Positions 1,987 through 33,663 of a stretch of DNA of 33,663 bases are shown one piece after another. The translations under genes were made by a program, and so were the position numbers. The notes below the pieces were generated by a model. The model was not told where the DNA came from. It worked only from the letters and a program-made list of their open reading frames with translations, and made no database searches. Position 1 is the stretch's first letter, and each line of letters opens with the position of its first letter. The DNA is from a virus: the IMG/VR virus record IMGVR_UViG_3300032164_000041, positions 1-33,663 of that record; one strand, 5' to 3'.

Positions 1987-3313
1987 ACAACCGCAGCAGC
2001 AGGCGACGACGGCGCTCGCCACGACCCAGCCCCACGGGGCGGTCATGAAGTCGGAGGGGTTCGCGGGCGCGACCACCCTGGCGGTGGGCGAGACCAGCGC
2101 GGTGGCCATGGCCGAGCAGGCCAAGGCGGCCGTCCAGTCCCGCTACCTGATGGCGATGCGCAACCCGCGCAACTGGGACGACGTCCGGACGAGGCTGATC
2201 AAGGAGTGCAGCCGGCCGAGCTTCGCGCCCACGGCGATCTACAGCAAGCCGGTCGGCGACGGCGCGGTGAGGGGCTTCTCCATCCGCTTCGCCGAAGCCG
2301 CGATGCGTGTGATGACCAACCTCCTGCCCGAGACCTACGTGGTCTTCGACGACGCCGAGAAGCGCATCATCCGCGTGATGGTGACCGACTTGGAGAGCAA
2401 CCTGACTTACTCCAAGGACGTGATCATCCAGAAGGTTGTGGAGCGCAAGAAGGTGTCGGAGCACCAGGAGGTGCTGGGCAAGCGCCTGAACACCTACGGG
2501 AAGATCGTCTACATCGTCCGGGCGACCGAGGACGAGATGCTCAACAAGGTCAACTCGGCCGAGTCGAAGGTCATCCGCAACCACGCGCTCCGCCTGCTGC
2601 CTGGCGACATCCTTGACGAGTGCAAGGCCAGGATCGAGGAGACCACGACGGCCGAGCACTCGAAGGACCCGGACGCCGGTCGCAAGCGCCTCGTCGACGC
2701 CTTCGCCGCCGTCGGCGTGAGGGCCTCCGACCTCGTCGCGTACCTCGGGCACGACCTCGACAAGCTCCAGCCCGCAGAGCTGGTCGACCTCCGCGCGATG
2801 CACCAGGCGCTCGCGGACGGGGAGGCCACGTGGGACCAGTTCGTCGCGGCGAAGAAGCCGGAGGACGGGGCCGCCGCGAAGTCGCCCGCGGGCGACCGGG
2901 CGCAGAAGGTCAAGGACGACGTGGCGGCCAAGGTCGCGGCCAAGCGGAAGGACAGGCCGGCGCAGCAGAAGGCGCCAGAGCCCGAGCCGGCGAAGGCCGC
3001 CGCGCCGGCGGACCCCTCGGACGAGTCCGTCGCGCTGCTCCAGCAGGCATACGAGGCCGCGAGCAAGGTGGTCAAGATCTTCGACCTCAACCAGGTCCTG
3101 AAGTCCGCCGCGCTGCCGATCGCTCCCTACGAAAAGTGGGACCGCGACCAGCGCGTCTACGGCATCTACCTGCTGAACTCGATCACAGAGGGCGGGTGCG
3201 TCCCCGAGACGCCCGACGTGCCATTCTGGCTGGGCGAGGAGGAGTCCGAGGTGTGGGCGCGGTCCTACCGCGGCGGCGTGGGGAAGGCCGGCCTGCTCGC
3301 GCCCGCCACGTGA
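1976..3313 (+). CDS. Unknown 445-aa protein in recombination block
   Basis: Residues about 40-215 form a compact, conserved-looking domain (RNPRNWDDVRTRL, FSIRFAEAAMRVM, ATEDEMLNKVNSAESKVIRNHALRLLPGDI). About 120 residues of charged, Ala/Pro/Lys-rich sequence follow, then a short folded C-terminal part. The gene lies directly after an exonuclease, SSB and DUF5131, a setting where phages often carry a single-strand annealing protein. The core could be such a recombinase, but I cannot assign it to the RecT, Erf or Sak families from motifs. The ATG at 1976 follows GAGGAG by 6 bases and lies inside the end of the previous gene. Its last 49 bases overlap the convergent minus-strand gene. Confidence 0.85.
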   Translation: MANEQPQQQATTALATTQPHGAVMKSEGFAGATTLAVGETSAVAMAEQAKAAVQSRYLMAMRNPRNWDDVRTRLIKECSRPSFAPTAIYSKPVGDGAVRGFSIRFAEAAMRVMTNLLPETYVVFDDAEKRIIRVMVTDLESNLTYSKDVIIQKVVERKKVSEHQEVLGKRLNTYGKIVYIVRATEDEMLNKVNSAESKVIRNHALRLLPGDILDECKARIEETTTAEHSKDPDAGRKRLVDAFAAVGVRASDLVAYLGHDLDKLQPAELVDLRAMHQALADGEATWDQFVAAKKPEDGAAAKSPAGDRAQKVKDDVAAKVAAKRKDRPAQQKAPEPEPAKAAAPADPSDESVALLQQAYEAASKVVKIFDLNQVLKSAALPIAPYEKWDRDQRVYGIYLLNSITEGGCVPETPDVPFWLGEEESEVWARSYRGGVGKAGLLAPAT

Positions 3314-3672
3314 TCCGGCCAGCCCGCGAACGCTAGCCGCGCCATCGCGGCGTCACGAACCCCCTGCAGAACCATGACGTTGTAGCCGGAGACGGCCACC
3401 CCCTCGGACAGTCTCAGCCACTCCGGGTCCGCCTCGACCGCGGCCTTGACCCTCCACTCCGGCCACGCCTTGTGGCGGTCCGACTCCGCGACGATGGCCC
3501 TCGACCTCCACGCCGTCCGGTGGGCCGCCGCCCGCTCGTGCTCGAGCAACGCGCAAGCGAGGGAGCCCCCTATCTCGGCCATCAGCCTCACGACCGCGTC
3601 CCTGTCCGCCAGGAAGATGCGGTCCTGGTCCACCTCGCGGTCCTCGCCGTCAATCTTGAGATGGAGCAACAT
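3265..3672 (-). CDS. Small unknown protein, convergent with the plus-strand block
   Basis: This 135-aa protein is not recognised. It looks mostly helical and charged, with a central part reading HKAWPEWRVKAAVEADPEW followed by a hydrophobic helix. Its start overlaps the end of the HU-like gene by 23 bases, so it belongs to that minus-strand unit. Its stop (TAG at 3265-3267) lies within the 3' end of the plus-strand 445-aa gene, giving a 49-base tail-to-tail antisense overlap. It is probably made together with the HU-like protein. Confidence 0.7.
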   Translation of the reverse strand: MLLHLKIDGEDREVDQDRIFLADRDAVVRLMAEIGGSLACALLEHERAAAHRTAWRSRAIVAESDRHKAWPEWRVKAAVEADPEWLRLSEGVAVSGYNVMVLQGVRDAAMARLAFAGWPDHVAGASRPAFPTPPR

Positions 3673-17629: not shown

Positions 17630-20278
17630 TCACCTCGATGTTGCCGGGGCGGGCATGACGCCCTGCTCCCGGAGGACGCCGCGCTGCCACGGCGGGGTCT
17701 TGGCGCCAGACCTCTCCCACGTCTCGATCTGCTGGCGCGCCATGCCCCGCGACAGCTCCTTGCCGTCCAGGCTTACCTTGTTGTCCACCTGCACGTGGCT
17801 GGTGTGCTCGACCTTCGGTGGGTTCTTCTGCAGCGCCCTGCCCACGTGCTCGCCGATCTTCTCGGGGTCGATGACTGGCATCTTGGCCGCCGCGAGTTCG
17901 GCCCCGACCATCGCCGGGACGGCGGGGGTTAGTCCAGCCGCGATAGCTGCCGGCCCGCCTGCCTTCTGCACCGCGACAGGAGGTACGCCCGGCTTCTCCG
18001 GCCAGATGAGCCCCGAAAGCCCCTCGCGCCCGAACGTCTTGAGCGCGCCGGGCACGTCCACGCCGAGGAGCTCGGCGAGCTTGGTGACCTGCGTCACGAC
18101 GTAGCGGAGTGGCACCAGGATGGCGTCCAGGATGGCCACGCCGAGCCTGGCAAGCCCGGAGAGCACCCCGCCCTCGTAGAGCATCTGGACGGCGTCGAGG
18201 ACCCGCCTGACGTGGTTGTACGCCATCTGGAGCGGCGTGATGAAGAAGGTGCCGAATGTCCGGTAGAACCAGACGAAGGTGGGTGCCAGCGACGCCCACG
18301 CCTTGATGATGAACGCCACGACCTCTGCCACGGTCACGACGATCGTGCCGAGGATCGTCCCCAGCGTCATCCCGAGGTCCTTCCAGTTCAGCTCCATGCC
18401 GCCGGTCGTCCCCGCGAACTGGGCGGCGATGTCCTCCATCGACGCCTTGATGATCCCGATCGTCTCCGTCCAAATCACCTGCAGCTCCTCGAGCACGGGG
18501 GCAAACGCTGCCGAAAGGCCCTGCCAGTATGGGATTAGCACCTGCTCGAAGACGTAGACCGCCGCGTCCTTGATGTTCTGCCACACGCGCAGGGCCGTGT
18601 CGCCGAAGCTCTCGCCCTCCTCGCGGAGGAGCGAGAACGCGACGAAGCCGGCCACCCCGATCGCGGCCAGCACCGGGAGGACCCACGAGGTCAGGACGCC
18701 GGCCAGGCCCGACACGATGAGGGCCAGGCCCTTCACCGCGGGGATGACCACGCTGAACAGGACGAACCCGAACGTCACGGCCGCGCCGAGCACGGGCGCG
18801 AGCGCGGCCGCCACCGCCAGGAACTTCACGGCGAACTCGGCGATCTCGATGACGGCTCTCGGTCCGAAGGTGGCGTAGAACCATTCGGACGCCTTCTGGA
18901 ACATCCCGGTGATGGTCGTGATGCCGGTCTTGACCGCGTCGATGCCGCGGACGACGCCCCACGCTATGGCCTCGGGCATGCCTGTGATCGGGAACTCCTC
19001 TCCCGCCCCGAGCGTCTTGATGCGCTGGATCGACAGCACGATCGCGGAGACGGAGTCCGTGGCCCGCGTGACCATCTGCTTCAGGCCCACCAGCGGGCCC
19101 TCGAACAGCTCTATCGTGAAGCCCTCGATGGCGCTCGTGAGGATAGTCCACTGGCCTTTGAAGGAATCCAGGCGGGTATCTGCCATAATCTTGGCGGCGC
19201 CGTCCGCCTTCATGATCTTGGCGTGGAGTTCCGAGAACGTGAGCGCGCCCTCCTTGCCCTGCTTGTCGAGGCGGGACAGCACGCTGGTCAGGCCGATCCC
19301 TCTGAGCCCCAGCAGATCGGAGGCCACGGCCGCCCTGTCTACCTTGCCGCCGTAGGAGTTCATCCCCTTCTGGAGCTGGCGCAGGGTCGCCTCGAGCCCG
19401 ATGAAGTTGCCGTTCGCGTCACGGATGGTCAGGCCCATCTTCTCCATGATCTCTTGCTGCTTCTTGGTGGGGGAGGCCATGGCCAGGAACGCGTTCTTGA
19501 GCGCGGTGCCGCCGAGCGTGTTCTTGAAGCCTGCGTCCGCCATGAGGCCGAGTGCGGTGACCGTCTCCTCGAAGCTCATGCCCGCCTGCGCAGCGATGGG
19601 CGCGATGTACTTGAGGCCTTCTTGCAGGCCTAGGATCGAGGTGTTCGTGCTCGCGCTGGCAACCGCGAGCTGGTCCGCGACCTTCGCGGCCTCGCTGGCC
19701 GGCTTGTTGAACGCCCGGATGTTCAGCGCGACGACGTCGGCGGCGTCCGCAAGCGACATGCCCTCGGCGGCGGCCGCATTGAGCACGCCGCCGACCGCGC
19801 CCATGGTCTCCTTCGCGGAGAACCCGGCGCGGGCCATGATCTCCATGGCCTGCCCCGCCTCGGTCGCGGTGAACTGGGTGGCGGCGCCCAGGCGCTTGGC
19901 CTCGGCGGTTAGCATGGCCATGTCCGACGCGAGCTTGGTCGGGTCCGTGATGGGCGCTCCGATCGACTTGACGACCGCCATCTGGGCCTCGAAGTCCACC
20001 GCCATCTTGCCGGCCATGCCCACGGCGATGCCGATGCCCGTGGTTAGCATCGCCGCGGACTTCATGGCCGTCCCCACCTGGCCGATGCCGGCCGATATGT
20101 TCTTGAAGCTCGCGTCCAGCGCATTGACCTGAGTCTGAGCCTGGGCCATGTGGCCCGTGGCCTTCGTCACCGATCCGCCGAGCTGGTCGTACGCGGCCGA
20201 GGACCGCTGGATGCCGGCCACGCCCGCCGCGTCGTCGAAGATGAGCACGGCCCCGAGGCCCATGGACTCGAACGCCAT
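17630..20278 (-). CDS. Tape measure protein
   Basis: This 882-aa protein has a TP901-1-type core domain at about 80-330 (MAVDFEAQMAVVKSIGA, AKRLGAATQFTATEAGQAMEIMARAGFSAKETMGAVGGVLNAAAA). Several hydrophobic helices follow in the middle (about 480-680), then a helical C-terminal part. It sets the tail length and fills the tube. By the usual rule of about 0.15 nm per residue the tail would be roughly 130 nm, a loose estimate. It starts two bases after the end of the frameshifted chaperone, downstream of GGAGGAG. No lytic domain is seen. Confidence 0.93.
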   Translation of the reverse strand: MAFESMGLGAVLIFDDAAGVAGIQRSSAAYDQLGGSVTKATGHMAQAQTQVNALDASFKNISAGIGQVGTAMKSAAMLTTGIGIAVGMAGKMAVDFEAQMAVVKSIGAPITDPTKLASDMAMLTAEAKRLGAATQFTATEAGQAMEIMARAGFSAKETMGAVGGVLNAAAAEGMSLADAADVVALNIRAFNKPASEAAKVADQLAVASASTNTSILGLQEGLKYIAPIAAQAGMSFEETVTALGLMADAGFKNTLGGTALKNAFLAMASPTKKQQEIMEKMGLTIRDANGNFIGLEATLRQLQKGMNSYGGKVDRAAVASDLLGLRGIGLTSVLSRLDKQGKEGALTFSELHAKIMKADGAAKIMADTRLDSFKGQWTILTSAIEGFTIELFEGPLVGLKQMVTRATDSVSAIVLSIQRIKTLGAGEEFPITGMPEAIAWGVVRGIDAVKTGITTITGMFQKASEWFYATFGPRAVIEIAEFAVKFLAVAAALAPVLGAAVTFGFVLFSVVIPAVKGLALIVSGLAGVLTSWVLPVLAAIGVAGFVAFSLLREEGESFGDTALRVWQNIKDAAVYVFEQVLIPYWQGLSAAFAPVLEELQVIWTETIGIIKASMEDIAAQFAGTTGGMELNWKDLGMTLGTILGTIVVTVAEVVAFIIKAWASLAPTFVWFYRTFGTFFITPLQMAYNHVRRVLDAVQMLYEGGVLSGLARLGVAILDAILVPLRYVVTQVTKLAELLGVDVPGALKTFGREGLSGLIWPEKPGVPPVAVQKAGGPAAIAAGLTPAVPAMVGAELAAAKMPVIDPEKIGEHVGRALQKNPPKVEHTSHVQVDNKVSLDGKELSRGMARQQIETWERSGAKTPPWQRGVLREQGVMPAPATSR

Positions 20279-20280
20279 CG

Positions 20281-20484
20281 TCAGCTCCTCCGGCCCCTGC
20301 CTGCGGCCTTATCGACCGCCTTCTTCTCGTCGATCAGCTGGCGGGTTACCCGCTCCAGCCACCACCGCCTCTCGTCGCGCGTCATGCCCTCGGCGTCCGA
20401 GTAGCATATCGAGCCCTTCATCGAGTAGAGGAGCTGGAACTCCTCCTCGCGGGATCGCTCCAGGTCTACCGGGAAGACATCCCA
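20281..20484 (-). CDS. Frameshift extension of the tail assembly chaperone (T-like part)
   Basis: These 67 codons have no start of their own. They are reached by a -1 shift at the T7 run, giving WDVFPVDLERSREEEFQLL and continuing to AAGRGRRS, so that the long chaperone product is about 332 aa. The segment is charged and helical (RDERRWWLERVTRQLIDEKKAVDKAA). As in lambda gpG/gpGT, the extension should bind the tape measure protein. It ends just before the tape measure ATG, as expected for a T-type domain. Confidence 0.82.
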   Translation of the reverse strand, partial: WDVFPVDLERSREEEFQLLYSMKGSICYSDAEGMTRDERRWWLERVTRQLIDEKKAVDKAAGRGRRS

Positions 20485-21278
20485 AAAAAACTCTCGAAGC
20501 TCCAGTCCAGCGAGGTGCGGATGTCCTCGCCGCATGCCGGGCACACGGTCTCCACCGCCATGTCCGGCCCCACGTGGTTCGCGTCGATCGCCTTCGTGAC
20601 GGACTCCACGTCCCGCTTGGACATGGAGCATAGGTCGTCGTCCGTGAGCACCACGTTCGCGGCGTCTGTCCCGGTGATGGATGCCCTGATGATCGCGGCC
20701 TTCGCCGCCCCGACGTTGATTCCGCGCTGCGGGGGCATCGACTCCACCGCGTACCACCGGGCCGGGCCCATCTTCAGCGTGCGGACGACGGACGACCGCA
20801 CCTCGATCGGGACCTTCAGCTCGTACTCCCACGAGGCGTCGCCGATGGCGTCGACGACGCGGACGTCCAGGTCGTCGAGGTCGGCCATCACGTTGGCCGT
20901 GGACCGGCGGCACGCCGGGCAGCGCACCGTGAACGCGATCTCCTGCCCCAGCGCCTCGCGCCGCAGCAGGATGTAGGCGTAGTAGACGTCGCCGATGAAC
21001 GCCTGCGAGATCGCGGACGCGCGCTCCGCCTCCTTGAGCTTCGTGAAGTCCTTGTCGCCGAAGCGGGTCAGGAGAACGGTCAGGACGGCGTTCACGGTCG
21101 CCGCCATGCTCGCGTCGCCCGCCTTGTCGCGCAGCCGCCCGATCTCCTTCTCCTCGCGGAGCGAGAACGTCCGGGCGCCGAGCCCCTTATCGAGCCCGGC
21201 AGGGGTAGGCACGCCCACGGGCAGGGACAGCCCGAGGTCGCGCATGGTCATCACTCTCGTCTTGGATTCCTGGGTCAT
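20466..21278 (-). CDS. Tail assembly chaperone, short product (G-like; T4_baseplate family)
   Basis: This 270-aa protein lies between the tail tube and tape measure genes. It resembles the tail-chaperone/T4 baseplate gp26-like family, with FLREEKEIGRLRDKAGD-like helices, GDVYYAYILLRREALG, and two CPAC knuckles (near residues 119 and 249) that could together bind zinc. At codon 265 the ribosome can slip back one base to make the longer product; without slipping the protein ends FFGMSSR. The ratio of the two products normally governs tape measure loading. The start follows GGAGGAG by about 7 bases. Confidence 0.85.
   Translation of the reverse strand: MTQESKTRVMTMRDLGLSLPVGVPTPAGLDKGLGARTFSLREEKEIGRLRDKAGDASMAATVNAVLTVLLTRFGDKDFTKLKEAERASAISQAFIGDVYYAYILLRREALGQEIAFTVRCPACRRSTANVMADLDDLDVRVVDAIGDASWEYELKVPIEVRSSVVRTLKMGPARWYAVESMPPQRGINVGAAKAAIIRASITGTDAANVVLTDDDLCSMSKRDVESVTKAIDANHVGPDMAVETVCPACGEDIRTSLDWSFESFFGMSSR
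20484..20490 (-). other. Slippery heptamer T TTT TTT for -1 ribosomal frameshift
   Basis: In the zero frame the minus strand reads AGT TTT TTT GGG. A -1 slip gives TTT TTT TGG and enters the extension. A Shine-Dalgarno-like GGAG (20500-20503) lies 9 bases upstream, as in dnaX. GGGA-N5-TCCC directly after the site could form only a weak hairpin. The zero-frame stop is 15 bases past the site. Confidence 0.85.
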
Positions 21279-21340: not shown

Positions 21341-21781
21341 TCAGGTGGTCGGCAGGATGTCGTCCACGCTGAACGTCCACTCCACCTGGGCCAGCTCGCC
21401 CTCGTTCGCCATCTCCACGTCGGGCAGCTTCCGCTTGCGCGGGAACATGCCCAGGAGCGTGAACGTGCGGACGGTCAGGCCCGAGATCGACTTCATCGTC
21501 AGCGCCGCCACCTTCTTGTAGGTGGGGCTCACGGGGTCCTGGCTCTCGCGGAACCACACCTCGAGAGCGGCCTCCTCGAGCTGGTGGTGCGCCGGGTGCA
21601 TGCCCACGATCTCGGCCATGCCCCGGTTGCCGCCCGTGGCGCGGGTGCGGTCGGGGAGGTCCGTGGTCTGGAGCTCGTCCTCCAGCCCCGTGAGGCTGGT
21701 GAAGACGATCGGCGGCAGGCCGATGACCGTCATCTCGTACTTGTTTCGCCCGATGTGGTCGGGCTGGATCACGCCCTTCAT
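21341..21781 (-). CDS. Tail tube protein
   Basis: This 146-aa protein lies between the sheath and chaperone genes, the tube position in contractile phages. It has the size and character of a T4 gp19/PBSX XkdM-like tube protein: a beta-rich start (KYEMTVIGLPPIVFTSLTGLEDELQT) that reads as polymer contacts, a segment HHQLEEAALEVWFRESQDPVSPTYKKVAALTM, and a closing strand set (VEWTFSVDDI). It polymerises as hexameric rings inside the sheath. Confidence 0.85.
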   Translation of the reverse strand: MKGVIQPDHIGRNKYEMTVIGLPPIVFTSLTGLEDELQTTDLPDRTRATGGNRGMAEIVGMHPAHHQLEEAALEVWFRESQDPVSPTYKKVAALTMKSISGLTVRTFTLLGMFPRKRKLPDVEMANEGELAQVEWTFSVDDILPTT

Positions 21782-22082: not shown

Positions 22083-24362
22083 TCAGGCCGCGGCCTCGAA
22101 GATGCCCTGCTTGCCGATCCTGATGCGGAACCGCTCGACGGTGTCGGCGAGGCGCAGGGAAATGTCCGCGAACATGTCGCCGTCCGCCATCGTGGCGTCG
22201 GTGTTGTTCTCGGCGTCGATCTTGATGATCGCGGCCTCGTCCAGGGTCTTGCCGCGGATGGCGCCCTTGCGCCACTCGGGCAGGAAGAAGCTCTTGAGGC
22301 TCGTGAGCCCGAGGCCCTGGGTGTCGGTGGAGTTGATCTGGAACACGATCCAGTCGAAGGCCTCGATGAGCACCTGCTCGTAGTAGCTCATCTGCTCGCG
22401 CTGGTGCTTCCACTTCCAGTTGGGGTCGGTCCACAGGGTCCGGTCACCCCAGGAGACGAAGTTCCCCTGGACCTTCTTGACGACGTTGATCCCGCGCGGG
22501 TTCAGCATCTCCTCGTCCAGCAGGCGGTCGCCGGTCGGGATGTCGAGCACGCCGGTCAGCACGGCGTCCACGCCGGCCTCGGCCTTGTGGTAGCCCTGGT
22601 AGTTGCGGCAGATCGCGGCCTCGCGCCCGTGGATGCGCCCGGTCAGCGTGCAGAGCTTCTGGCGGTTCTCGGTGCCGCTCGCCGGGTCGTTCACGTAGCC
22701 GTAGCTCGGCCAGGAGACGACCGCGTAGTCGGAGCGCCCGAGGGTGTCGTTGACGTACCCGTCGGCGGACACCTCGTCGGTGACGTTGGCGGGCACCTCG
22801 TAGCGGTACTGGTGGTTCTTCGCGGCGGCGTACGCGAGGCCCGCCTTCTGGACGGAGGTGCTGGTGACGCCGGGGGTGGCGAACTTCACCAGGCCCACGT
22901 TCTTGCCGCGGAGGCGGTTGAACGGGGACGAGCCGACGTCCCACGCCTGCTGGTTGTAGTGCGCGTCGGTGATGTCCGCGTGGCCGTCCCGGCCGCCCGC
23001 GAGCTCGACCTTGGCGTCGATCTGGAACTGGTCGCCCGGCGCGCCGTCGTCGGTCATGTCCGATCCGTCGGCGACGGTCACGGACTTGTGGTCGTTCGCC
23101 ACGATGCGGAACTTCACGCGGGGGGCGTTCGCCTTGTCGGGGAAGCAGGAGCCGCCCACGAGGGAGGAGGGCGCGAAGGGCTTGTACCAGATCGTGACGA
23201 CGTCGTCCTCGACCAGGGTGCCCGTGCCGTTGTCCAACATGAAGGGCGGCGCCCATTTCATCGTCGGGGCGAACGCCGTCCCGAGGGTGCCGGTGCCGAG
23301 CGCGCCGTGCTTGTCGCTCACGGCGGAGAAGGTCAGGTCGCCCGCGAGCACGGTGCAGGTGACCTTCTGCGGCAGCATCTCGTCCGTGGTGGTGCCCATC
23401 GCGAGGGTGGGCACCGCGCCGCCGGGCGAGACTGTCTCGTGGTTCTCGGTGACGGCGGTGAGCACGGTGGCTGTGACGGCGGAGCTCACCCCGTAGTGGC
23501 TCGCGGGCCGGACGTCCGCGGTCGGCGCGCCGGTCCAGAGGTCGACGGCCGTCCCCTCGAAGTTGTCGCCGTCCTCGTTGATCTTGGCCACCCAGTACCG
23601 CGGGCTGGCGGGGTCGATGGAGAGGTTGGCCCACTTCTTGACGAAGGCGCCGTCGACGTAGACCGAGACGGCGAACTCCGTGGTGGGCTTCTCCTCGCCG
23701 TCCTCCACGAGGACGGAGAGTGCCTTCCCCTCGTTGGCGATCGCGACGTAGAACCGGAAGTCCGTCCCCGCGCCGAAGTCGGTGAGCATCTTCTGGTCTG
23801 CGGAGACGGTGATGACGCCGGCGGCGTCGTTGCCCACGATGGCGTAGCTCTTGTTCGCGATGCCCGCGAACACGAGCGACCCGCCCTTGAGCTGGTCGGT
23901 CTTCCACCCGGTGAACCCGGTCGTGAGCGTGATCTCGGTCAGGTCGCCCACCCCTGTGAACTCGGACGTGAAGTTGTACGCCTTCCCGCCCCACCGCCCT
24001 CCGTTCTTGGCGACCAGCTTGCCCATGGGCGTGAGGACCGGCCTCTTGGCGTAGAGCGTGATCTCGGACTTCAGCTCGTTGCCGTCGGTGACGCGCACGA
24101 GCCACATGCCGCCCGCGCCCGCCGCGAGGTCGGCGTAGTTCTGGCAGGCGTCCGGCGCCTGTCCGTCCGCGATGAGCCCGCCCATCTTCCGGGTGAACGC
24201 GTTCTTCCCCTGGCAGTAGATGAGCTTCCCGACTTCGCCCTTCTCGAAGAGGCCGGCGTAGCCGACCTGGCCCAGTGCGCCTGGGGTGATGGGCTTGTCG
24301 CCTTCCTTCTCCTCGATCTGGACGCCCGCGGCCCGGATGGGCCCGAAGATTCTCTGCGCCAT
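22083..24362 (-). CDS. Tail sheath protein
   Basis: At 759 aa this is larger than P2 (about 390) and T4 (about 660) sheaths. The C-terminal sheath domain is clear at about residues 600-759: ERLLDEEMLNPRG-like GDRLLDEEMLNPRGIN, QGNFVSWGDRTLW, REQMSYYEQVLIEAFDWIVFQIN, then FFLPEWRKGAI. The N-terminus (MAQRIFGPI, ITPGALGQVGYAGLFEKGEVG) fits the sheath family, and the beta-rich middle (about 110-450) looks like inserted outer domains. It contracts to drive the tube through the envelope. The ATG at 24362 follows AGGAG by 6 bases and lies one base after the previous stop; an ATG five codons upstream is less likely. Confidence 0.92.
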   Translation of the reverse strand: MAQRIFGPIRAAGVQIEEKEGDKPITPGALGQVGYAGLFEKGEVGKLIYCQGKNAFTRKMGGLIADGQAPDACQNYADLAAGAGGMWLVRVTDGNELKSEITLYAKRPVLTPMGKLVAKNGGRWGGKAYNFTSEFTGVGDLTEITLTTGFTGWKTDQLKGGSLVFAGIANKSYAIVGNDAAGVITVSADQKMLTDFGAGTDFRFYVAIANEGKALSVLVEDGEEKPTTEFAVSVYVDGAFVKKWANLSIDPASPRYWVAKINEDGDNFEGTAVDLWTGAPTADVRPASHYGVSSAVTATVLTAVTENHETVSPGGAVPTLAMGTTTDEMLPQKVTCTVLAGDLTFSAVSDKHGALGTGTLGTAFAPTMKWAPPFMLDNGTGTLVEDDVVTIWYKPFAPSSLVGGSCFPDKANAPRVKFRIVANDHKSVTVADGSDMTDDGAPGDQFQIDAKVELAGGRDGHADITDAHYNQQAWDVGSSPFNRLRGKNVGLVKFATPGVTSTSVQKAGLAYAAAKNHQYRYEVPANVTDEVSADGYVNDTLGRSDYAVVSWPSYGYVNDPASGTENRQKLCTLTGRIHGREAAICRNYQGYHKAEAGVDAVLTGVLDIPTGDRLLDEEMLNPRGINVVKKVQGNFVSWGDRTLWTDPNWKWKHQREQMSYYEQVLIEAFDWIVFQINSTDTQGLGLTSLKSFFLPEWRKGAIRGKTLDEAAIIKIDAENNTDATMADGDMFADISLRLADTVERFRIRIGKQGIFEAAA

Positions 24363-24363
24363 G

Positions 24364-25608
24364 TCAGTCTCCTTCATGTGTGCTGAAGTTCAGGCTGCCC
24401 CTCGAGGTGAACCTCGTGGCGGCAGGGTGTTGCCTTGCGCCGCCCAAGTGCAGCGCGACGTTCCGCAGTCTGAGGCGGCACGATCCCGTGTGCAGCTCGC
24501 CCTTCGACGCCACCAGCCTCGACGTGTACCGCTCGGCCACGGTGAGCGGCCACTCCTCGTCGAAGGCCGGCGACCTCACCATGGGCTCGGCCGCGACGAG
24601 CCTCTCGATCTCCTCTGACAGCCTCAGGTGGTCGACGAGCTTGTCGGAGATGCTGGTGAGCCGGAAGTCCAGGTCGCCCTGCACGGGCGGGAGGAGCACG
24701 AGCCCGGAAGCCGGGCCCTTGTTCACGATGTCCTCGCCCGCGCCCCGCGAGTACGCGTCGGCCAGCGACACGTCCTCGACGAGGACCGCCGGGTAGCCGG
24801 CCACCTCGTCGTAGTCCTGGCTCGTCATGACAGCCACGATGGGCTCGTACACGAACCGCACGCGGACGCGCTTCCCGGCCGCCAGCTCCTCGGCGAGCAC
24901 GACCGTGGTCGGAGGGCTCCACGCCACGAAGATGTCCTGGTAGTGCTCGGGGTCGTCTGTCTCGTTGAACGCGGAGTCGATGCCCACGATGTGGTAGCCC
25001 GTCTCTATCCCGCCGATGCCCACGCTGTCGGTGTCCTCAGCCAGGTCGATGAGGACGTCGCCCCGCGGGCGCAGACCGGCGCGGATCGTCGGCACGAGCG
25101 AGCGCAGCACCAGCTCCTCCAAGAAGTCGGCCGTGGTGTCCCAGGACAGCTTGAGCTGCGAGACCTCGGGCGTGGCCTTGTCGTCGCTCGTCCAGAGGCC
25201 CATGACGACCCTGACGCCGTCCTGGACGGGGAAGTCGCCGACGTGGGAGGACACCTCCTCCTCGGTGTTCCACTCGTCCGTGGTCGCGGCCCACGCCGCG
25301 CCGTCCCACCAGAACGAGTCGGCCCCGGCGCCAGCGAGCCGGTAGCCGACCCGCGTGCACACGTCGCCCTCCGCGTCCACCTTGTTCACCGAGCTCGCCT
25401 GGAACCCGGTCCACCGCGCGGCGCTCGAGGGGCGGAAGAGCCTGCTCCTGCACTCCTCGAACGTCCCGACGGGGAAGGCGCCGAAGTCGTCGGCCTCGAG
25501 CTGCACGCGGTGGGTGGCGGCGTTCAGCCGGCAGCCCGGCCCGAACTGCATCGATGCCCGCTCGCTCTCGGGGAACTCGAAGACCTTTATGAGGGGCGTC
25601 GTCCTCAT
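24364..25608 (-). CDS. Unknown virion protein upstream of the sheath
   Basis: This 414-aa protein starts at an ATG overlapping the previous stop (ATGA). Its first half is beta-rich with many Trp (TGFQASSVNKVD, DSFWWDGAAWAATTDEW, GDFPVQDGVRVVMGLWTSDDKATPEVSQLKLSW), resembling a jelly-roll carbohydrate-type fold. The second half reads like a neck or tail-terminator partner (RLVAAEPMVRSPAFDEEW, LHTGSCRLRLRNVALHLGG). Its place between the gp10-like protein and the sheath suggests a tail completion or connector role. No named family is assigned. Confidence 0.75.
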   Translation of the reverse strand: MRTTPLIKVFEFPESERASMQFGPGCRLNAATHRVQLEADDFGAFPVGTFEECRSRLFRPSSAARWTGFQASSVNKVDAEGDVCTRVGYRLAGAGADSFWWDGAAWAATTDEWNTEEEVSSHVGDFPVQDGVRVVMGLWTSDDKATPEVSQLKLSWDTTADFLEELVLRSLVPTIRAGLRPRGDVLIDLAEDTDSVGIGGIETGYHIVGIDSAFNETDDPEHYQDIFVAWSPPTTVVLAEELAAGKRVRVRFVYEPIVAVMTSQDYDEVAGYPAVLVEDVSLADAYSRGAGEDIVNKGPASGLVLLPPVQGDLDFRLTSISDKLVDHLRLSEEIERLVAAEPMVRSPAFDEEWPLTVAERYTSRLVASKGELHTGSCRLRLRNVALHLGGARQHPAATRFTSRGSLNFSTHEGD

Positions 25609-31633: not shown

Positions 31634-32509
31634 TCAGAGCACGCTCTTCCAGAACGACGTGGCGGCCTTGTTGACGTCGACGGTGGAGTCGCCCGACGCC
31701 GACTGGGACGGGGTGCGGACCTTCTCGATGGCCTCGATCCGCTTCTCCACGCCCTCGACGGCCTTCTGGACGCCGGCCAGCAGGCCCTCGACGTGGGAGT
31801 CGGCCTTCTCGGCGCGCTCCTTCGCGGACTTCTCCTCATCCGTATCGGCCTTCGGCAGCGCCTTCTGCAGCGCCTCGGCCACGGCGCCCTCGTCCACGCC
31901 GTGCAGCATGGAGATGAGCTTGACGATGGACTCCTGGATCGCCTGGATGCGGGGCTTGGTGACCCGCTTCGCCTTCTCGACGTCCTCGTCCTTCGCCTTG
32001 TTGGCCTTCTCCGGGACGCCGCAGGCGTTGGCCTCCTGGGCCTTCGCCCGCGCCTTCTCGGACTCCTCCTCTTCGACCACCTTGGCCTTCGCCTTGTCGG
32101 CGGTCACTTCGTCCTTCTTGGCCGCCCGGTTCTGCTCGGGGTACGGGTAGCCGCCTGGGGCGGGGTACGCGCCGGAGGCGACCTTGCCCACGAACTCGGC
32201 GAGGCGCATCGCCTCCTTCGGCGCGCCCTCCTCGCCGGCCTTGGCCTTCAGCCACTCGGCGGAGGCCTTGATTGCGGCCATGAGGTCGGGCGGGAAGCCC
32301 TTCTCGACCTCGGCCTGGTTGGCGGGCTGGGCGCCCGCGCTGCTCTTGGTGGCGTCGTCGGCCTGAAAGTTGCCCATTTTCGCGTCCTCCAGTGCTTGTG
32401 CTTCGCGTTTGACGACCACGAACTTCCTGAGGTTCGCGGCCCTGTCTACGAGGGAGACCTCCCGGACCACGAGGTCCAGCAGCTCCCGTGCTTCATCAGT
32501 CTTGGCCAT
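31634..32509 (-). CDS. Scaffold-like protein starting with the protease 'SLVDRAAN' segment
   Basis: In this 291-aa protein residues 9-35 read LLDLVVREVSLVDRAANLRKF, the segment normally found in the C-terminal half of prohead proteases (E-x-S-L-V-d-x-P/A-A-N). After it comes a Lys/Glu/Ala-rich, helical, coiled-coil region (about 95-275) typical of capsid scaffolds. It should guide capsid assembly and be removed by the protease. The start follows AGGAGG by 7 bases. The protease gene upstream ends at its GFSIGG segment, so the usual fused protein seems to be split here. A promoter-like element lies between the two. Confidence 0.82.
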   Translation of the reverse strand: MAKTDEARELLDLVVREVSLVDRAANLRKFVVVKREAQALEDAKMGNFQADDATKSSAGAQPANQAEVEKGFPPDLMAAIKASAEWLKAKAGEEGAPKEAMRLAEFVGKVASGAYPAPGGYPYPEQNRAAKKDEVTADKAKAKVVEEEESEKARAKAQEANACGVPEKANKAKDEDVEKAKRVTKPRIQAIQESIVKLISMLHGVDEGAVAEALQKALPKADTDEEKSAKERAEKADSHVEGLLAGVQKAVEGVEKRIEAIEKVRTPSQSASGDSTVDVNKAATSFWKSVL

Positions 32510-32576: not shown

Positions 32577-33663
32577 TCACACGGTGGCGATGCCCCCGAT
32601 CGAGAAGCCCGTCAGCCGCCCCGCCTTGACGTCGCCCCACACGTCGTCCCTCACCACGTGGACGGTCATCACCCACGTCCCCTGCCTGATCTTCACCCCG
32701 TTGATCGTGACGTCGCACGGGGCGACCCAGCTCTCCGCGAGCTCGATGCCGTTGTCGGCGAACTTGCGGTGCATGAGTCCCATCCTGGTCTCCTCGTTGT
32801 AGTCGGACAGGAACTTGTGGGCCGCCTTCTCGATGATCCGCTCGCGGATGACGTCGCCGTGCGCGTCCACCACGTCGGGCTCGAGCACGATGCCCGTGAC
32901 GAGCCTCCTCTCCTCCTCCACCTTCAGGACGGGGACGTAGACTTTCACGACCTCGGGCCCGGCGGCGGTCCGGCTCCACAGCCACTCCTGCCCGCCCTCG
33001 TTCTGCGCCGCCGTGAAGACGCCCTTGAGCCTCTCGCCGTCGAGGCTCAGCTTCAGGAAGCCGCCCGTGTCGGAGAGGATCACGGCGTCGCCGCCGTCCA
33101 CGACGTCGATCCTGGACGGTGTGGCCTTGGTGGGGTTGGCCCAGTGCCCGGGGGCTATCTCGCCATCGAGGGCCATCGCCCCCCTGTGCGCCTCGTCCTC
33201 CACCGCCGCGGCAAGCTGATCGTTGTCGAGCGGGTTGCCGGTGAGGCGAATCGTCCGCACCTTGCCGCCACTTTCGATGCGGATAAACCACAGGCGCTCG
33301 GAAGGGCCGGTCCTGATCACCACTGGTCCCCTCCACGTCTGCTCTTGCAGGACCCACTTGGCGTCCAGCGCCTTCTCCGCCTTCTCCTTGTATGGCGCCG
33401 CATAGTCGATCTTCAATTGCCCCGCGCCGATGGCGAACACGATCGAGTCGCGCTGCGCACGAGCCTTCACCCCGGTGTTCGCCTCCCAGTACCGCATCAC
33501 TTTCGGCACCTGGGCTCGCACGGCCTCGGGCAGGGCGGAGACGCCGATCGGCGGCATCCAGTCCTTCTCGATCGCGTCCTTCGAGAGGACGTAGGGCGTG
33601 AGGTCGTCAGGCTTGATCGCGAACCACTGCGGCCCGGGCAGCGGGGCGCCTTCGCCGGTGGAC
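32577..33663 (-). CDS. XkdF-like prohead protease with extra N-terminal domain, 5' end cut off
   Basis: The frame stays open to the window edge (QWFAIKPDDLTPYVL precedes the ATG at 33557), so the true start is outside. The last about 125 residues match the XkdF-like serine protease family (Peptidase_S78_2): TGIVLEPDVVDAHGDVI, IEKAAHKFL, GLMHRKF, ELAESWVAP, W-VMTVHV-x4-WGDVKAGRLTGFSIGG. The His in GLMH and Ser in FSIGG are likely catalytic. The preceding about 200 residues contain WFIRIESGGKVRTIRL, then GGFLKLSLDGERLKGVF and EWLWSRT, a pattern like the phosphoesterase domain of LigD (low certainty). It matures the capsid by cutting scaffold and shell proteins. Confidence 0.85.
   Translation of the reverse strand, partial: STGEGAPLPGPQWFAIKPDDLTPYVLSKDAIEKDWMPPIGVSALPEAVRAQVPKVMRYWEANTGVKARAQRDSIVFAIGAGQLKIDYAAPYKEKAEKALDAKWVLQEQTWRGPVVIRTGPSERLWFIRIESGGKVRTIRLTGNPLDNDQLAAAVEDEAHRGAMALDGEIAPGHWANPTKATPSRIDVVDGGDAVILSDTGGFLKLSLDGERLKGVFTAAQNEGGQEWLWSRTAAGPEVVKVYVPVLKVEEERRLVTGIVLEPDVVDAHGDVIRERIIEKAAHKFLSDYNEETRMGLMHRKFADNGIELAESWVAPCDVTINGVKIRQGTWVMTVHVVRDDVWGDVKAGRLTGFSIGGIATV

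Follow-up and report, generated by a model that had tools for sequence, protein, structure and literature searches.

We conclude, with a probability of about 94%, that a contractile-tailed phage uses a programmed -1 ribosomal frameshift in its tail assembly chaperone operon, at a T TTT TTT heptamer close to the end of the chaperone gene. The phage is an uncultivated virus, represented by the single metagenomic record IMGVR_UViG_3300032164_000041, and the whole of this record (33,663 bases) is referred to here as the window. A textbook -1 site in this gene had been proposed in an initial annotation of the DNA. The proposal is now supported by all 62 distinct loci that were compared, and by codon-level selection on the GGAG upstream of the heptamer.

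On the minus strand the sheath and tube genes are followed by the chaperone gene with its extension, the tape measure gene and then baseplate genes (Table 1). The chaperone and its extension sit between the tube and tape measure genes, the tube gene being assigned by its position, and the presence of a sheath gene shows that the tail is contractile. The putative tube protein gave no match in the profile libraries searched; its counterparts in other loci, where found, are 36-69% identical and lie every time in the interval between sheath and chaperone. The GC content is ~68% around the chaperone locus. No tRNA genes were found within the 33,663-base window, and a search of Rfam gave no match. 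It is worth adding that elsewhere in the window, the minus-strand gene at 32577-33557 has an XkdF-type protease domain (PF14550) at its C-terminus, after ~200 other residues. This gene matches positions 36-153 of a head maturation protease profile, while the N-terminal 33 positions of the same profile are matched by the next gene (31634-32509), which is an odd order.

Table 1. Features of the tail operon around the putative frameshift site, with the basis of each assignment.
Feature	Position	Strand	Basis
Tail sheath protein	22083..24377	-	phrog_23 tail sheath, 4e-26
Putative tail tube protein	21341..21781	-	position only, as in BRock
Tail assembly chaperone, zero frame	20466..21278	-	ORF, PF12322, phrog_150, predicted fold
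SD-like GGAG	20500..20503	-	sequence; GGRR at equal spacing in 43/54 relatives
Slippery heptamer T TTT TTT	20484..20490	-	sequence; T TTT TTN in phase in relatives
-1 frame extension (TAC-C / T-like domain)	20281..20483	-	profile match, phrog_20255
Downstream region expected to fold (putative stimulatory structure)	20416..20483	-	resampling z, stem pairs
Zero-frame stop TAG	20466..20468	-	sequence; 15 nt after heptamer
Tape measure protein	17630..20278	-	phrog_1533, 4e-80; PhageMin_Tail, 6e-46

Through the site the minus strand reads ...TGG AGC TTC GAG AGT TTT TTT GGG ATG TCT TCC CGG TAG. The heptamer is in the right phase, as had been claimed: codon boundaries fall at 20489 and 20486, which corresponds to X XXY YYZ; GGAG lies exactly 9 nt upstream, the stop follows at the distance originally given, and the interval assigned to the site, 20466-20503, correctly covers everything from GGAG through the stop. 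Across the site the -1 frame stays open and leads into conserved coding sequence. The extension, FFWDVFPVD and onwards, consists of 67 codons after Phe-Phe plus a stop codon (20283-20281), and, as initially described, it ends just before the tape measure gene, 2 nt ahead of the ATG at 20278. The T run is also the sole long run of its kind, there being no other run of seven T's on either strand; 0.07 such runs would be expected in the whole window. In the codon use of the window, TTT makes up ~5% of Phe codons, and codons ending in T ~7% of those for Ser.

The chaperone itself is a protein of 270 amino acids, TAC-N / gpG-like and of the gp26 type, ending in FFGMSSR*. It matches PF12322 (T4_baseplate) with E 7e-8 and 32.8 bits, above the curated cut-off of 24.5, and phrog_150 (baseplate hub) with 5e-7. 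The AlphaFold2 model has a pLDDT of 92 and a pTM of 0.89, and its best fold matches are predicted baseplate-hub or gp26-type viral proteins, among them those of Bacillus phage BCD7 (TM 0.79), the baseplate hub subunit of SP-15 and Gp26 of Aeromonas phage 25; a Foldseek search of the model against solved structures returned nothing meaningful. The gp26-like identity proposed earlier is thus backed by PF12322, phrog_150 and the predicted fold, and both of the CPAC motifs noted then are present. In alignment A2, two relatives (L012 and L037) lack both CPxC pairs together, and this paired loss suggests a single metal site made up of the four cysteines. The extension matches phrog_20255 with E 4e-5.

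Searches of viral contigs with the chaperone, the tape measure protein or the extension singly gave no confirmed relatives, and a protein search of isolated phages gave nothing at E 0.01 and, at E<=10, only BRock, a weak but real match; no close relative of the window is present in the collection of isolated phages. Relatives were gathered by means of the sheath: a sheath search gave 36 viral contigs, and a search with a sheath alignment gave ~40 further viral contigs and, in a scan of genomes, just two contigs, both from metagenome-assembled genomes (MAGs). After removal of duplicates there were 62 distinct loci, the window included, that carry both chaperone and extension, and 54 of them form a subset with <70% chaperone identity.

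Each of the 62 loci has the extension profile in the -1 frame and T TTT TTN in phase, as TTTTTTC in 57, TTTTTTT in four and TTTTTTG in one (49, four and one in the subset of 54). The zero-frame stop is 15 nt past the heptamer in 38/54 loci and 24-96 nt past it in the rest. The comparison of homologues suggested in the initial annotation thus comes out in its favour: the heptamer and the -1 frame are conserved, at stop distances varying from 15 to 96 nt. The all-T heptamer of the initial annotation holds for the window, but it is a minority form (4/54), the norm in the clade being T TTT TTC. Immediately after the heptamer FFRxFFP is conserved, and many relatives have a -1-frame stop directly ahead of it. 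In the four loci with the all-T heptamer (the window at 20484, L061, L068 and L084) the conserved Arg after Phe-Phe is replaced by Trp, Tyr or Cys, because the seventh base is also position one of that -1 codon. In most relatives 0-8 nt separate the extension stop from the start of the tape measure gene; in one locus (L003, 9520-10038) this gap is ~520 nt, possibly an inserted gene.

The site is conserved more strictly than the protein. The codon ahead of Phe-Phe encodes any of eight residues (S, N, D, H, G, Y, A, F) and always has T at its third base, and the first Phe is always TTT. Calculated from each locus's own codon usage, with shared ancestry ignored, the constant T before TTT TTN has a log10P of -27.7 and the constant TTT one of -23.7. 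The loci in which these hold range from ~32 to 68% GC. Similarly, of the 265 columns of the chaperone, the six most constrained at the third base are the three codons of the heptamer and three adjacent dual-coding codons. As judged from codon usage, these results show that the heptamer is under selection at the nucleotide level, beyond the constraint on the protein.

A GGAG, GGGG, GGGA or GGAA lies 9 nt ahead of the heptamer in 43/54 loci. Simple counts of SD-like motifs exceeded background only slightly, and it is a test at the codon level that is decisive. The leading GG of the element is part of a conserved Trp codon, and a Ser or Arg that follows this Trp may or may not be encoded by AGN. 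It is AGN in 22/24 cases, whereas behind the other TGG codons of these loci the share is 34.5% (Fisher p 5e-8, shared ancestry ignored). By this measure of codon choice the SD-like sequence is selected.

Most relatives also have TTTCTTCCCG a few bases past the heptamer, with its reverse complement ~20 nt further on. This conserved stem was absent from the initial annotation, which had the heptamer and GGAG as the frameshift signals, both of them correctly. On alignment A1, 73.5% of the stem cells are paired, versus 40-50% when the pairing is slid. There is some covariation, which gives moderate support (the cell count is reached in 25/500 shuffles), in part because the same bases are constrained by both frames. 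RNAalifold predicted no pairs on a 29-row alignment, probably because the 3' arm has moved or been lost in a few members; in some, such as L037, it has moved and the stem is kept. Counts of named pairs and codon-resampled energies were used in its place. When the 54 loci were compared with synonymous-codon resamplings that keep the -1 protein, the mean z for folding was -1.32 (s.e. 0.19, Fisher p 7e-15, shared ancestry ignored), while five control windows gave weak or no signal (mean z -0.41 to 0.01). The downstream stem is therefore clear for the clade, on the evidence of predicted folding. The stem of the window is weaker. Its z is -2.4 by synonymous-codon resampling, and since it is just -1.82 against dinucleotide shuffles, and the layout of the best fold is not that of the clade consensus, the stem in the window itself is suggestive.

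Together, the in-phase heptamer, the SD-like element and the stem correspond to the known arrangement of signals for ribosomal -1 frameshifting. The dnaX signal of E. coli has the same three-part layout of an SD-like motif ~10 nt upstream, a heptamer and a stem-loop downstream. The site, its phase, the frame relation, the gene order and the conservation of all elements are seen in the sequences; the slippage itself, its level and the role of the protein we infer. Most ribosomes would end at the TAG and produce the 270-residue, gpG-like chaperone. A minority would slip back by one base on T TTT TTT, with tRNA-Phe in the P and A sites re-pairing with UUU; pairing of GGAG with 16S rRNA 9 nt upstream would aid the slip, as would the downstream stem, in the clade at least. 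The slipped ribosomes would go on to translate 67 more codons, giving a gpGT-like fusion of ~332 amino acids. By analogy with lambda, the chaperone part may coat the tape measure protein, and the extension may recruit tube subunits.

The same fusion would be obtained if RNA polymerase added a U at the T run and the message were then translated normally, and transcriptional slippage to analogous ends is documented (review PMC5009743; tssM in Citrobacter, PMC4256274). The seven T's of the window would permit it in this one genome, and because both kinds of slippage give an identical fusion and FFW junction, protein evidence such as mass spectrometry cannot separate them. We nevertheless consider it very unlikely. 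Just six T's are present in 58/62 loci (followed by C in 57 and by G in one), and a seventh T, although one mutation away, is uncommon; the phase of the heptamer relative to the codon boundaries is kept; and the GGAG at its SD spacing and the downstream stem are ribosomal stimulators, without a clear role in transcription. It is the six T's, together with two selected ribosomal stimulators, that tell against the polymerase. One locus, L114 (a contig from an Emcibacteraceae MAG, at ~10361), has the sole T TTT TTG of the set. Here ribosomal slippage could give Leu at the second position of the junction and transcriptional slippage would give Phe, so that this junction could distinguish the two.

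In BRock, SP-15 and KVP40 the extension is annotated as a gene of its own, with an ATG in KVP40 that overlaps the chaperone stop, and it might be a separate small gene, translated from its own start or by re-initiation past the zero-frame stop. This is even less probable. In 36/54 loci the 20 codons ahead of the heptamer contain no start in the -1 frame, and in several a -1-frame stop abuts the heptamer; the first downstream start is at a median of ~20 codons in, beyond FFRxFFP and inside the conserved domain; a start with an SD-like motif nearby is found in 17/54 loci only; and the conservation of the heptamer would lack an explanation. An independent start for the extension was rejected on this survey of 54 loci. 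That the T run reflects chance, an assembly error or a decayed gene, as might be thought for a single metagenomic record in which any T7 has a probability of ~6%, is refuted by the relatives, 61 further distinct loci, most of them <70% identical in the chaperone, that share the site and frame relation, and has a negligible probability.

Beyond the clade in which the -1 ribosomal shift is proposed, small reading frames that follow gp26-type genes in isolated phages are likewise matched by the extension profile. In a sister group that includes Bacillus SP-15, LIS04, Streptococcus GXN1, the Streptomyces BRock group and the IMG/VR loci L125-L156, the homologous extension is in the +1 frame (in all, L002, L115-L117, L119-L121, L123 and L125-L156; some of the profile matches are weak). 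The +1 site is mostly TT[T/C] TTT CG[T/C] at the homologous Phe-Phe, with the exceptions TTT CAC/CAT/CAG, TTT AGT, TTT TGG and a TTA TT[T/C] AAT subgroup. The Phe codon before the shift is TTT in 24/24 sites (log10P -6.1), a count that is partly a selection artefact, these sites having been hand-picked for the TTT motif and the TTA TT[T/C] AAT subgroup excluded. The Arg after the site is CGN in 19/19 (log10P -11.6), a result that is free of this bias; in most of these genomes AGN is the commoner Arg codon. The +1 group as a whole, when aligned, proved too diverse for use as a search query. By profile comparison the -1 and +1 groups are homologous (97.2%, E 4e-11), and the profile alignment stops just before Phe-Phe in both.

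At the end of gp26 in KVP40 (L124, ~3290-3322) the sequence is GAT TTT TTC GTA TAA, and GAGG precedes the heptamer by 9 nt. Here the -1 frame continues as FFR into a gp51-C-like gene that is annotated as separate. The homology of the two groups and the end of their alignment at Phe-Phe make it moderately likely, from such comparisons, that the direction of the shift was switched at a homologous site, being -1 in the window clade and KVP40 gp26 and +1 in the sister group, where -2 shifting would reach the same frame. We also think, on balance, that a two-product system has probably been retained, whether by means of a -1 shift, a +1 shift or, in T4, a pair of separate genes. If true, the switch would be a natural experiment, in which the direction of frameshifting evolves under a kept two-product system.

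A frameshifted tail chaperone is an already known kind of system, of which that of the window is a further example, with control signals that are unusually complete and well conserved. Frameshifting of the lambda G/GT type is widespread in long-tailed phages, with T4 named as the exception; the lambda pair binds the tape measure protein and the tube subunit, is absent from the virion and is needed in a set ratio (2016 review, PMC5009743). The lambda gpG/gpGT frameshift was described by Xu, Hendrix and Duda (2004), as cited in a passage of PMC8211752. The window resembles lambda in having a short chaperone and a longer -1 form, whose coding region is flanked by the gene for the major tail tube protein and that for the tape measure. 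It differs in that its chaperone belongs to the gp26/PF12322 family with two CPxC motifs, its tail is contractile and its heptamer is T TTT TTC/T. Its clade has an SD-like element and a stem, whereas the passages on lambda in PMC5009743 and PMC8211752 describe no stimulators.

The T4-like tail assembly chaperones were identified by Vladimirov, Gautam and Davidson (2022), according to passages in PMC10885494 and PMC12846349. As cited there, some T4-like phages have separate genes for the short and long chaperones (PMC10885494), and poly-T signals occur in T4-like chaperones (PMC12846349). The T4-like gp26/gp51 system shares its Pfam family with the chaperone of the window, and differs in that some members, on the account quoted, carry separate short and long genes, whereas the window has one gene and a putative frameshift. 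In KVP40, the gene that follows gp26 has an annotation of similarity to the C-terminus of gp51, and it matches the extension profile with E 1e-5.

A conserved -1 chaperone frameshift with a GTTTTT motif is reported for phage Adele and the Vandenendeviridae/Andersonviridae in a section of PMC12846349. Common to that group and the window are a poly-T -1 site in contractile-tailed phages, and an extension mis-annotated as a gene. The Adele group is a different clade with a six-base motif, and the section concerned mentions no upstream or downstream stimulator. In dnaX, by contrast, the heptamer is A AAA AAG (discussed in PMC5009743) and the product is shortened, not extended. No description of the present clade or of its three-part signal was found in the open literature searched, which covered Vladimirov 2022 through the papers that cite it. 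Compared with these systems, the loci described here add the gp26 (T4-type) family, as represented by a broad clade of uncultivated viruses, to the tail chaperones with -1 frameshifting. Their three-part ribosomal signal, recognised by comparative genomics, makes a transcriptional explanation unlikely, and the ~70 bases that dual coding and RNA structure appear to share as constraints are defined precisely enough for reporter testing.
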